Origin: a virus
Length of the DNA: 21,818 nucleotides
Strand: one strand, 5' to 3'
IMG/VR virus record: IMGVR_UViG_3300033996_000046
Location: 1-21,818 of that record
Shown: piece by piece, positions 13,954-19,345 of the stretch
Numbering within the stretch: position 1 is the first letter of the stretch
Layout of the letters: every line of letters begins with the position of its first letter
The notes under the pieces: generated by a model
Database searches by the model: none
Told to the model about the DNA's origin: nothing
What the model saw: only the letters and a program-made list of their open reading frames with translations
Program-made: the position numbers and the translations under genes

Positions 13954-15213
13954 TCAATTCATCCAGCTGCCTGCGACTTCGGCAATGGCTTTTGGTTTGC
14001 GTTTGTGCGGTTCCCGAATCATAAGGCCAATATATCTAAAGGCGTCTGCCCCGTGGCTGTAGTGGTCGTGCAGTGGGTTTCTGCTGAACTGTCCAGTGTC
14101 TGGATCTACTTCATAGCGATAGTGGCGCAGACAGGCTAATCCATCAGCTGCGTGTTCTCGGTCAAAGTAGCAGTTAGGGAATATTGTTCTGGCTGCGTTG
14201 ATGCTGTCCACTACGGGAACCCTCGGCAATATCTCTGTTTTGTACCCTGCCGCACGGACAATATCGTCAATGCTTCGGCCAGATGCTGCCAGTGTTTTAT
14301 TCTCAGCGTCATGTGGTAGCCATACCTTGTCGTAGTGGTAGCCATAGGTCTGCATGGTTGCTAAGTAATAGCTGATAGTCTTTTGACTGTCCTCAATGTA
14401 GCGAATAAGCCTTGTTTCCATGCCTACAAACTGCAAGAACCATATAGCAGTGCTATCAGACCAACCCAAGTCAAAAACAGCGTGTACGGGCTTTGTGGCG
14501 TCAAATGGAACCCGGCAGATGCGTCCATCCTTTTCGGCCTGCTGCATTTCCTTGGCAAAGATGGCCCCGTCTACTGTTTGGCGGCACAAACCTTCCCAAA
14601 CCTGGTTATACGATTCTTCATCCCTTTGCTTGAGCGAATCCTTCTCCAACCGTAGCGTTTCAGGGAACCAAGGGTTATCTGACCAGTTCACCTTAATCTG
14701 GATGCAGTCATCAGGCGGCTTGACCACAAAGCGCTGGTAAGTCTCGTCTGTCTCAAGTTCGGGGTTAAAGCTAACCCAGATCTCGCTGCCTTCTTTGCGA
14801 ATCGTTGGAATCAAGACGTTCCAGGATAGGCGGCTGACCGTGCTTCCTTCCTCTACCCAACAAATATCCACTCCCTCAAAACTTTTTATGTTGCTGATGT
14901 TGTTCTTTAGACCAGCAAATGCGAACTCAGTGCCGTTTGCGCCTCGGATGCTGGCCTGGGTGATCTCGTAGAAGCTGTGCAGGTTTAGCGCCTCTATCTG
15001 GTCGCACAGGAGCTTGTGTACGCTGTCTTTGATGCTGGTTTGATACTCACGGGCACAGAGTATGCGGATTGGCTCCTTGGCCCCTTTAATCAGTAGCGCT
15101 CGAGCAATGCCCCAAGACTTAGCACCGCCCCTACCGCCGTAGCAGACCTTGTACCGACTGCGTTGGAACAGGCTTTGCAGCTTGAGTGGAAACTCTGCTT
15201 TGACTTCACTCAT
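13954..15213 (-). CDS. Terminase large subunit (ATPase and nuclease)
   Basis: A 419-residue protein. Walker A is GGRGGAKS at residues 26-33. Walker B is ICWVEE at 117-122 (VDICWVEEG), and the coupling motif SFNP lies at 148-151. The C-terminal RNase H-like nuclease is marked by Asp248 (FDLGWSD), Asp302 (HDAENK) and Asp390 (HGADAFRY). The layout matches the PBSX/Terminase_3 type. The enzyme cuts concatemeric DNA and drives it into the procapsid through the portal. It starts 8 bases inside the small terminase gene, so translation is coupled. Confidence 0.95.
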   Translation of the reverse strand: MSEVKAEFPLKLQSLFQRSRYKVCYGGRGGAKSWGIARALLIKGAKEPIRILCAREYQTSIKDSVHKLLCDQIEALNLHSFYEITQASIRGANGTEFAFAGLKNNISNIKSFEGVDICWVEEGSTVSRLSWNVLIPTIRKEGSEIWVSFNPELETDETYQRFVVKPPDDCIQIKVNWSDNPWFPETLRLEKDSLKQRDEESYNQVWEGLCRQTVDGAIFAKEMQQAEKDGRICRVPFDATKPVHAVFDLGWSDSTAIWFLQFVGMETRLIRYIEDSQKTISYYLATMQTYGYHYDKVWLPHDAENKTLAASGRSIDDIVRAAGYKTEILPRVPVVDSINAARTIFPNCYFDREHAADGLACLRHYRYEVDPDTGQFSRNPLHDHYSHGADAFRYIGLMIREPHKRKPKAIAEVAGSWMN

Positions 15214-15541
15214 TAGGCTTTACGAATGTGACCTGGATGCCTTGGAGCGCTTCACCGTCTTTGCCGGTTATCTCTTGCTTGACAGTCTCGGCCCATCGCA
15301 GCTGGGTCTTTGTCCACCAGATTAGTGCCGTGGTATCGCCGCTGGTTGCCTTGTCAAACAGTGTCCTGGCTATCTGCCCATTTGCTTTGGCTTTGCCCAG
15401 GTCTAACTCGGTGCGGTAGTGCTTGCGGAGCGTCTTATCGTCTATCCCAACCAATATAGCTATCTGCTCATGGGGCAAGCCTAACCCGCTGGTGCTTTCA
15501 ACCAGGCGTTGCTTTTCAAAGGTGACTTCATGCTCAATCAT
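15206..15541 (-). CDS. Terminase small subunit-like HTH protein
   Basis: A 111-residue protein. A helix-turn-helix lies at about residues 20-50 (LPHEQIAILVGIDDKTLRKH). The next helices (GKAKANGQIARTLFDKATSG) and the phrase ALIWWTKTQLRW are typical of phage DNA-packaging proteins coded next to the large terminase. It probably recognises the packaging site. The ATG at 15539-15541 has no Shine-Dalgarno sequence; an AT-rich TATATA lies just before it. Transcription may come by read-through from the right, because I see no good minus-strand promoter in the 75-base spacer. Confidence 0.85.
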   Translation of the reverse strand: MIEHEVTFEKQRLVESTSGLGLPHEQIAILVGIDDKTLRKHYRTELDLGKAKANGQIARTLFDKATSGDTTALIWWTKTQLRWAETVKQEITGKDGEALQGIQVTFVKPNE

Positions 15542-15587
15542 TTTATATAGGGGAAATGTGATTGCACTTGCTGCTCTTTAATTGTCG

Positions 15588-15616
15588 TTGACGTTTAGCT
15601 GGCTAAACTATACAAT
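15588..15616 (+). promoter_or_regulatory. Near-consensus sigma-70 promoter on the plus strand
   Basis: A -35 box TTGACG at 15588-15593 and a -10 box TACAAT at 15611-15616 are separated by exactly 17 bases. Each box differs from consensus at one position. It points at the only plus-strand gene. A perfect 16-bp palindrome fills almost the whole spacer. Confidence 0.75.
15593..15608. promoter_or_regulatory. Perfect 16-bp palindrome (candidate operator) between -35 and -10
   Basis: GTTTAGCTGGCTAAAC consists of 7-bp arms with a 2-base centre. It occupies the spacer of the plus-strand promoter. A dimeric DNA-binding protein here would block RNA polymerase. No second full copy was seen in the window. 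Confidence 0.65.
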
Positions 15617-15622
15617 GTGAAA

Positions 15623-15829
15623 ATGACACTATCGCCAATCGTCAACACAGACGTAAAAATTCCAGCCAAGATGCTTGAGGCGCTTACCTTGCATGAAATG
15701 CGGTGCGTTGTCACTGGCATTGAGTCTGTTACGCAAGAGTCCGTTAAAGCATTCCTGCTTGAGCGATATGGGGCAAAGTTGGCAAACAATTTCAAACCTG
15801 AATTCTTGTTCAGTAGCCAAGCTGTCTAA
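15623..15829 (+). CDS. Small plus-strand protein, probably leaderless, unknown function
   Basis: A 68-residue protein starting MTLSPIVNTDVKIPAKMLEA and containing LTLHEMRCVVTGI and ESVKAFLLERYG, which look like real amphipathic helices. I prefer the ATG at 15623 because it sits 7 bases after the -10 box, where transcription should start. A GTG at 15617 is also in frame but would precede the transcript. This is the only supported plus-strand gene in the window and it points against its neighbours. The last 20 bases overlap the end of the convergent 445-residue gene. No known domain is recognised; a small regulator is possible but no clear helix-turn-helix is visible. Confidence 0.6.
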   Translation: MTLSPIVNTDVKIPAKMLEALTLHEMRCVVTGIESVTQESVKAFLLERYGAKLANNFKPEFLFSSQAV

Positions 15830-17147
15830 GCATTTTTTCGGTAATCACGCCAGCGTAGGGCTTCATTGAGATTGATCTCATATCGGCGTCACTAGGCATC
15901 CTTGGGTCAGCAATGTTCCGTGCTTTGGCGTACTCAGGCAGCATTTCAAAGATGCTGGTGTCTTTGCTTACAGTGCCAATGCCTCGGCCTGGTACGCCAC
16001 TTGGGTAAGCAGGATGGCCAGATTCTGTGATGATTGGCTTACCAGCATATATCTCACCGACATTCATAATGCCACCTTGACGGGCTTCTAACTGTGCTGG
16101 GTCTGATATTGCTAACCGTGCGCTTCCAATATTTAAACCGCCTTCATCACGAAATTTCTTGTCCATCTTGTCTTTGATGGCTTTACGGGTCAAATCTGGC
16201 ATTTGCCTAAATTGATCAACGCTTGCGGGATTAGATACACCCGCCCAATCAGGGATGTATTGCTTTATCATTTTGTTTAATTGCTTTTTTTGCATCTTGC
16301 CCATAGACGCATCAGCATAGGCCAACATGGTTTCGCCTGTCATTTGGGCAAAATCACCACCAGTGGGAGCCATGCGATATGGCAAATACAACGGGTCTTG
16401 CCCTGTTGCAGCCTTAATTTCATCAGCGTATTTCATCAACGCTTTTGCTGGTTGCTTGCCAGATGCCCAAACTTGCCCAGGGTTGTTGAACATATAGTCC
16501 TGACCACCAAGCAACTCTACTGGCCTGTTGAACTGCACATCGTCAATTCCAACCAATTTGCCACCAGCTGCCGTGCGATCAGCCATGCTTGTGATAAATG
16601 GCCTGCCTTCAAAGTCTGCTAACGAAACTGTAGGCGCATTTGCCGCACCAGGATTCAATTGAACATCCCGAGTCATGGCCTGCATCCTGGCCTGCTCATT
16701 TACCCTCGGATCGTATCTTGGATCAAAAGCACCAAACCCGCTGCGGCCAGCTGGTGGTAGCGCATAGCTTTCTGCACCCCTGCTCATGCCTTGCAGCATC
16801 TCAGCGCCCATACCGCCACGTTCCATAATCTGCGGCACAGAACGCTCTGCAAGTCGTTCACCGGCTCGTCCTACAGCCATAGCGCCTGTCTTGGCAGGGC
16901 CAAAGAATGGCATCATTTGCAGTGCTGTGCCAAGCGGGAACCCTATCTCAGCGCCTGCTCTTGCTCTTGCGGTGTTTGGGTCTAATACGCTGCCCTGCTG
17001 GTCTGGTGCTGTTCCCATCAATCCAGACAGTGCGCCGTAAACCTCGGGTGCTTGTTGGCGCAGGTAAGGTTCTGCTGGACGCTGCAACATTTTTGCGCCC
17101 ATGACACTGCGGTTGGGCAGAAACGTATTCAGGCGATTGTTAGCCAT
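15810..17147 (-). CDS. 445-residue phage protein with polyvalent-protein-like C-terminal region
   Basis: The first 130 residues are Ala/Gly/Met-rich, including GFPLGTALQMMPFFGPAKTG. From about residue 165 the sequence becomes globular: LADFEGRPFITSMADRTAAG, PVELLGGQDYMFNNPGQVWA, DPLYLPYRMAPTGGDF and MTGETMLAYADASMGK. Similar phrases occur, from memory, in domains of large polyvalent proteins of phages and plasmids that are thought to enter the host cell. No catalytic motif can be fixed by eye. It lies just upstream of the terminase genes but is separated from them by the plus-strand gene. It may be a virion-carried or injected protein. Confidence 0.7.
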   Translation of the reverse strand: MANNRLNTFLPNRSVMGAKMLQRPAEPYLRQQAPEVYGALSGLMGTAPDQQGSVLDPNTARARAGAEIGFPLGTALQMMPFFGPAKTGAMAVGRAGERLAERSVPQIMERGGMGAEMLQGMSRGAESYALPPAGRSGFGAFDPRYDPRVNEQARMQAMTRDVQLNPGAANAPTVSLADFEGRPFITSMADRTAAGGKLVGIDDVQFNRPVELLGGQDYMFNNPGQVWASGKQPAKALMKYADEIKAATGQDPLYLPYRMAPTGGDFAQMTGETMLAYADASMGKMQKKQLNKMIKQYIPDWAGVSNPASVDQFRQMPDLTRKAIKDKMDKKFRDEGGLNIGSARLAISDPAQLEARQGGIMNVGEIYAGKPIITESGHPAYPSGVPGRGIGTVSKDTSIFEMLPEYAKARNIADPRMPSDADMRSISMKPYAGVITEKMLRQLGY

Positions 17148-18705: not shown

Positions 18706-18869
18706 TATTTCTTAGCGGTTTTGGCACTGGCCTTGAACGCCGCGGCAGTAGGTGCGCCCTTGGCGCCTGGTGACCTCATGCGCTCCGGTGTCTTGCCAGC
18801 ATCTTTTTGGCGCTCAATGCGCTCCTGCTTGGCGTGAATGTTGGCATACAGCCCTGGTTTAGTCGCCAT
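18705..18869 (-). CDS. Tiny basic phage protein of 54 residues
   Basis: A 54-residue protein, starting MATKPGLYANIHAKQERIER and ending in a Lys/Ala-rich tail (AAFKASAKTAKK). The pattern LYANIHAKQERI followed by SPGAKGAPT is familiar from many proteobacterial phages, where it is of unknown function and often sits beside the DUF6321-like gene, as here. A GGAG site lies 7 bases before the ATG, within the end of the GroES-like gene (11-base overlap). The stop overlaps the next start as TAATG. Both junctions support it as a real gene. Confidence 0.75.
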   Translation of the reverse strand: MATKPGLYANIHAKQERIERQKDAGKTPERMRSPGAKGAPTAAAFKASAKTAKK

Positions 18870-19128
18870 CTTCAAACTCCACTACCGCACAAATGTCGGC
18901 TTCTTGAATAATTTGGTAATCCTGGCCATTTTCTGTCTGAGTCGGCCAGTTCAGATAGTCGCCGTTGCCGTACTTGATAAAATCACCAACCGCCACATCC
19001 GTCACCAGTGGGCCTACGGCCACCACAGTGCCTTCGTTGAAGGGTTCCTTGTTGTCAATGTAGATCAGGTCGCTTAACTTGCGAACTTGGGGCTTTACAA
19101 CAACACGGTCACGCAGGGGTTTGAACAT
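18859..19128 (-). CDS. Phage-encoded GroES-like co-chaperonin
   Basis: An 89-residue protein from the ATG at 19126-19128. A longer frame begins with TTG at 19162, but the family N-terminus MFKPLRDRVVVKPQ (GroES: MNIRPLHDRVIVK) fixes this start. Other matches are EGTVVAVG near residue 31 (GroES GEVLAVG), VAVGDFIKYGNGDYL near 45, and EADICAVVEF near the end (GroES SESDILAIVE). The mobile loop, which carries an Ile-Val-Leu tripeptide for GroEL binding, is shorter here with Leu21-Ile22-Tyr23 at that place. It probably caps host GroEL to help fold coat or tail proteins, as gp31 does in T4. It overlaps its upstream and downstream neighbours by 20 and 11 bases. Confidence 0.85.
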   Translation of the reverse strand: MFKPLRDRVVVKPQVRKLSDLIYIDNKEPFNEGTVVAVGPLVTDVAVGDFIKYGNGDYLNWPTQTENGQDYQIIQEADICAVVEFEDGD

Positions 19129-19345
19129 TTTTACGCTCGTACTTTCGTTTGATTCGTGCAACAACTTGCGGTTTGCTGGTGTCGGTCATTATGTCGTAGA
19201 CAGGCACTTCTGCAACTTTTCTGTCTTCAATTGCAGCAAATTGACCGCACCAATCATTTCGGTGTTTGTTTTGAGTCATTGGATACAACCGACAGACGCC
19301 CATGATGGCCTGGTCTTGGAAGTATTTGCACCCAGAACAATTCAT
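19109..19345 (-). CDS. Small four-cysteine protein, possibly zinc-binding
   Basis: A 78-residue protein starting MNCSGCKYFQDQAIMGVCRL. Cys3, Cys6, Cys18 and Cys33 could bind one zinc or an iron-sulfur cluster in a CxxC-type ribbon. The C-terminal half is basic (VVARIKRKYERKNVQTP). It starts in an ATGA overlap with the upstream 54-residue gene and runs 20 bases into the GroES-like gene. Similar small N-CxxC proteins occur in other phages, but I do not know a function. A nucleic-acid-binding role is plausible from the Cys set and the basic tail. Confidence 0.75.
   Translation of the reverse strand: MNCSGCKYFQDQAIMGVCRLYPMTQNKHRNDWCGQFAAIEDRKVAEVPVYDIMTDTSKPQVVARIKRKYERKNVQTPA

Follow-up and report, generated by a model that had tools for sequence, protein, structure and literature searches.

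A small gene facing the late genes of a P22-like phage and its predicted leaderless, Cro-repressible promoter

Why would a phage carry, within a block of late genes, a small gene on the opposing strand with an operator-bearing promoter of its own, and which protein would bind that operator? We examined the window, a 21.8-kb (21,818-nt) virus record of a P22-like freshwater phage (IMG/VR IMGVR_UViG_3300033996_000046), whose minus strand encodes a terminase (PF04466), a P22 portal protein (PF16510) and a P22 coat protein (PF11651). ORF68 is alone on the plus strand, and every other credible gene of the window is on the minus strand; these coordinates agree with the original prediction of a sole plus-strand gene amid a minus-strand block, between a 445-residue gene and the terminase. 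In our main reading, to which we assign a probability of roughly 0.7, the locus is an early, Cro-repressible promoter with a leaderless gene, whose small product would be a partner of the late g445 protein. The features are as follows.

15206..15541, minus strand: terminase small subunit gene, terS (phrog_309, 3.2e-15), the divergent neighbor in the window's phage clade only
15588..15593, plus strand: -35 box TTGACG, unchanged across 13 sequences
15593..15608, plus strand: operator dyad GTTTAGC-TG-GCTAAAC, predicted Cro-type switch operator and top matrix site of the window
15611..15616, plus strand: -10 box TACAAT, 6 nt (GTGAAA) ahead of the ATG at 15623
15623..15829, plus strand: ORF68, between terS and g445, encoding a 68-residue protein of a new family with an SPIVNTDVK motif
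15810..15829, both strands: tail-to-tail overlap of ORF68 and g445, 20 nt, with the spacing kept at most loci
15810..17147, minus strand: g445, a late gene of 445 residues and the obligate convergent partner of ORF68

Promoter and predicted start of ORF68

The ORF68 promoter has the layout TTGACG-TTTAGCTGGCTAAACTA-TACAAT-GTGAAA-ATG with an N17 spacer, and the proposed TTGACG-N17-TACAAT promoter is thus present at 15588–15616, where it is invariant in relatives. A promoter match at 10 of 12 positions is unremarkable alone (3 seen vs 4.8 expected in 4 kb). A given 29-nt promoter would contain a dyad with 7-bp arms and a loop of ≤4 nt with a probability of ~0.005, and the window contains seven such dyads. 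The weight of the promoter evidence is conservation, not consensus-scan significance: a search of IMG/VR with the ORF68 protein and a separate search with the promoter and dyad pattern identified the identical 12 contigs, and the -35 box, the dyad and the -10 box show zero variation in a 13-sequence alignment. Conservation of the palindrome and of the ORF in relatives, one of the points on which the original prediction had staked itself, is therefore borne out, as both are kept in those same 12 contigs. The dyad shares its first base with the end of the -35 box, and 2 nt separate it from the -10 box. A palindrome does occupy the spacer, as had been proposed; it was described as a perfect 16-bp palindrome, which is off by two bases, as its 7-bp arms flank a non-symmetric TG center (14/16 positions symmetric).

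ORF68 resembles a moron in having its own promoter and in being inserted between genes that are adjacent in relatives; terminator-like sites in this region of the window, which bear on whether it also has a terminator of its own, occur at chance level only. In one relative (L093), a different small gene lies between terS and the ORF68 unit, and homology restarts at ~15564, just upstream of the promoter, so that promoter and ORF travel jointly with the 3' end of g445, as a single block.

Given a -10 box exactly 6 nt before the ATG, the canonical +1 position is the A of the ATG at 15623. The same exact spacing recurs in 17 of 34 ORF68 promoter clusters, and for this reason we consider that the ORF68 mRNA probably starts at the start codon, in keeping with the leaderless transcript originally predicted. 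The remaining clusters have a Shine-Dalgarno (SD) sequence with a promoter further upstream, or a gene in front. In related phages, the operator abuts the -10 box of cro in most of 15 cases. As a separate observation on those cro regions (L311–L323, G001 and G002), cro itself looks leaderless in all 15 phages, with a -10 box 5–8 nt before the ATG and no SD sequence. In phage PY54, RACE identified the cI and cro transcripts as leaderless mRNAs that begin at the AUG (PMC4488713).

The dyad as a predicted switch operator

To score the dyad, we used a matrix of 21 switch operators from other phages, which were picked by eye from switch regions and then scored; all ORF68 sites were left out of the matrix, as were a tested phage's own sites. 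The window dyad ranks first in 21.8 kb at 13.2 bits, and a first-order model gives 0.21 expected sites at this score per window, or 8e-4 per 80 nt. In the close relative G001, the ORF68 site ranks fourth, straight after that phage's three switch operators; it ranks first in G004, fourth in G002, and second in G003 and G006, and in G002, G003 and G006 one other site scores equal or slightly above. ORF68 sites score below their cognate switch operators and differ by one base per arm from TTAAG (TTTAG). The exact dyad occurs as a single copy in each of six phage records searched. By this scoring, the promoter appears to be operator-bearing, as originally predicted, with a dyad that reads as an operator of related phages' switch regions.

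In the relatives G001 and G002, the switch region is divergent and contains a P22_Cro gene (PF14549, above cut-off), and its early and cro promoters carry dyads of the form TTAAG-N4-CTTAA; P22_Cro scores above cut-off in 13 of 28 related records. To be a symmetric site that matches operators beside a Cro-family gene of the same phage type, as the dyad does, is one mark of a P22/N15-type Cro operator. In G012, another plus-strand gene occupies the same slot, and its 14-nt operator, ATAAGTTGGCTTAT, is identical to that phage's early operator. The dyad is probably a binding site for the switch repressor of its own phage type. As its likely binder we favor the Cro-type repressor of the phage's switch over a host regulator or the 68-residue protein; since the window stops short of the cro of this phage, the repressor is deduced from two near relatives, G001 and G002. 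The idea that the locus is a self-contained regulatory unit does not hold if the likely binder is the phage's Cro-type repressor, and ORF68 is also half of an obligate pair with g445. We found no tyrosine integrase in eight long records and, in a non-exhaustive look at records, recognized no CI-type repressor, so that a full lysogeny switch is unproven.

A second operator class follows a second repressor class. Phages G007, G009 and G010 have a different helix-turn-helix (HTH) gene at the switch and switch operators of the form TCTAGC-N5-GCTAGA, and at their ORF68 promoters the -10 box is covered by TCTAGC-N5-GATAGA, one mismatch from the switch operator. Among 24 records, the class-2 operator occurs at ORF68 in 12 of 14 that hold class 2 vs 0 of 10 that lack it (Fisher 3e-5, a value to be read with the records being related and the 12 falling into about four promoter clusters, hence not independent), and a reversed-pattern control for the class-2 search gave zero. 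The two exceptions, G036 and G044, have class-2 operators elsewhere and none at ORF68. In G008 and the phages with SD-type ORF68 starts, the operator search gave nothing clear. Class-2 phages also have an extra perfect operator outside the switch (G010:27460, G007:22262 and G009:15717), located downstream of a helicase-like gene, either inside small genes or between them.

This covariation bears on three other explanations of the dyad. That it is incidental, with ORF68 a simple moron gene under a constitutive promoter, draws on the 12 of 17 leaderless ORF68 clusters that have neither known operator. However, between the window's clade and L115, 13 of 13 dyad bases are kept as against 9 of 16 other promoter bases, with flanks that are unalignable; together with the switch-operator score and the class covariation, this makes an incidental dyad unlikely. 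The 68-residue protein might instead bind the dyad and repress itself, given that dyad and ORF68 are strictly linked within the window's clade, yet most ORF68 homologs with leaderless promoters lack this dyad, class-2 phages have a different operator at ORF68 that matches their own switch operators, and ORF68 has no HTH family match and only weak fold matches. We regard such self-repression as very improbable. The dyad resembles the KorB operator, TTTAGC-S-GCTAAA, which has a 1-nt center, and the KorA operator, GTTTAGCTAAAC, and a KorA/KorB-type regulator from the host or a plasmid might therefore bind it. The center here is the 2-nt TG, on which ground we rejected identity with a KorB or KorA operator; moreover, the dyad agrees with the switch operators of this phage group, which have N4 spacing, and the operator changes along with repressor class, and we give a KorA/KorB-type binder hardly any credence.

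ORF68 and its partner g445

Using profile searches, we confirmed the ORF68 family at 132 places in IMG/VR, with kept members at 44–100% identity; a 49-member alignment (A3) has a near-invariant SPIVNTDVK start. Based on this conservation and on dN/dS values of 0.12–0.28, ORF68 is a real, new protein family and, as the original prediction had it, a genuine opposing gene. We found no match to the family in Pfam, PHROGs, INPHARED phages, plasmids or PADLOC, and no relatives in the bacterial genomes, annotated phages or plasmids searched. A first structure model had low confidence. A second model (pLDDT 81) is predicted to be all-helical; compared with the PDB it had no match, and one uncharacterized viral protein, A0A6J5NJ72, matched the model with a TM of 0.84 and an E value of 4.6e-3. 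BRCT-like sequence matches in the PDB (E 0.75–1) were rejected, as they disappeared with a deeper profile and the model is all-helical. Close relatives hinted that synonymous sites near the ORF68 5' end are under special constraint, an idea that we rejected because it fails in distant members.

Could the transcript rather than the protein be the product, acting as an antisense RNA or, by convergent transcription, limiting expression at the 3' end of g445? The tail-to-tail overlap is conserved, and an ORF68 transcript must enter g445 unless terminated. Against this, distant pairs combine strong amino-acid constraint with relaxed synonymous sites (dN/dS 0.12–0.23, pS 0.57–0.63) and the overlap is merely 4 nt in several members, which leaves the transcript a very unlikely product.

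The g445 family occupies 344 places in IMG/VR, and we used the best 80 of these to count pairing. ORF68 faces g445 at 79 of these 80 loci, and the remaining one is cut by the contig end, giving 79/79 testable loci. Starting from ORF68, a g445 family gene was found tail-to-tail at nearly every locus examined; the overlap is 20 nt in most loci. The divergent neighbor of ORF68, by comparison, varies and may be terS, an unrelated TerL gene, a scaffold gene or another gene. A conservation profile divides g445 into an N-terminal leader that varies and a core that is conserved (approximately residues 130–445), and the leader also occurs in other proteins that occupy this slot in relatives. As an aside, the leader precedes other C-terminal regions (L007 151–438, L006 739–1284 and L135 4188–5585), like that of a modular delivered effector.

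The two products may also be physically linked. One form this could take is that ORF68 is the immunity protein or antitoxin to g445, with g445 a packaged, ejected effector of the polyvalent type, a reading compatible with our main one. Its appeal lies in the obligate pairing and in the swappable g445 leader, which is common to other slot proteins; one slot protein of a relative also has a weak ART-PolyVal match, and polyvalent proteins are injected and have their genes near those of the virion (PMC5512222). However, the ART match is below cut-off, and neither ORF68 nor g445 matches a toxin, antitoxin or polyvalent domain: g445 and its homologs had no Pfam or PHROG match and no known polyvalent domain, the feature that marks polyvalent or ejected effectors, and our searches of Pfam, PHROG, toxin/antitoxin families and polyvalent domains found no sequence signs of g445 toxicity or packaging. 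Antitoxins are usually encoded in the operon of their toxin, whereas ORF68 and g445 are convergent and have no toxin-antitoxin (TA) family match, unlike a type II TA system. We consider the antidote role possible, if doubtful. An extended version would have g445, delivered with the virion as a late effector, and its antidote ORF68 form a tail-to-tail module shared across phages whose packaging genes are unrelated, with the timing of the antidote set by the resident switch repressor and the promoter re-acquiring a matching operator after transfer; we offer this as speculation that is unlikely to be right as a whole.

Proposed mechanism and known systems

Under the main reading of an early, Cro-repressible promoter, host RNA polymerase would use the ORF68 promoter, which is of the sigma70 type, along with the early promoters early in infection. 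As the switch repressor accumulates, the early genes, cro itself and the ORF68 promoter would be shut. Repression of ORF68 would remove opposing transcription by the time polymerase passes through the late operon g445-terS-terL-portal. The 68-residue protein would be early and self-limited, and it may act with or on g445 made later from the facing gene.

Elements of this arrangement occur in known systems. Phage lambda cI is expressed from PRM, an operator-bearing promoter, as a leaderless mRNA; ORF68 shares the operator-bearing promoter and, by prediction, the leaderless mRNA, whereas it is not a recognizable repressor and no lysogeny genes were identified. The telomere phages PY54, phiKO2 and N15 have a Cro-family repressor with short palindromic operators (PMC4488713, PMC4997575), a likeness that, with the leaderless cI and cro, would extend to ORF68. 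However, their operators lie at the switch and a replication gene, and the ORF68 site is remote, in a late cluster and on the opposite strand. In CP-933P, the accessory system paaR2-paaA2-parE2 is under PaaR2/YdaS, with a lambdoid switch, a leaderless regulator gene and the Cro-like YdaS (PMC8630535); there a phage switch runs an accessory system, as is predicted for ORF68, but its genes are inside the immunity region and ORF68 is far from the switch. The stoperators of Cluster A mycobacteriophages are repressor sites at a distance from the main operator, with a motif that varies in step with the repressor of the phage (PMC6550527), as the off-switch ORF68 site is predicted to do. They are many, asymmetric and elongation-stopping, in contrast to the single symmetric site inside one promoter at ORF68.

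The late-region accessory gene is apparently wired to the early switch, with an operator that tracks repressor specificity from phage to phage, making the ORF68 system a testable case of how mobile phage genes come under a new phage's control. The two genes form an abundant, unnamed family (344 g445 and 132 ORF68 places in IMG/VR) that is absent from the annotated phage records searched, and they provide a large number of probable leaderless phage genes for comparison.

Phage morons are accessory genes with their own promoter between late genes. ORF68 is likewise an accessory gene with its own promoter amid late genes, in a slot whose content varies among relatives, but its promoter appears wired to the phage switch and it has an obligate convergent partner. 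The slot upstream of terS (15542–17147) is a cargo site, with contents that vary in L005, L006, L007, L032, L035, L044 and L048; among these contents is a plus-strand gene (MQTKLSQVKAAY...) that is unrelated and has a promoter of its own. At 15539–15560, terS has no visible SD sequence and has TATATA a few bases before its ATG, so that its start may also be unusual. A GroES-like (Cpn10) gene lies among the late genes at 18859–19164.
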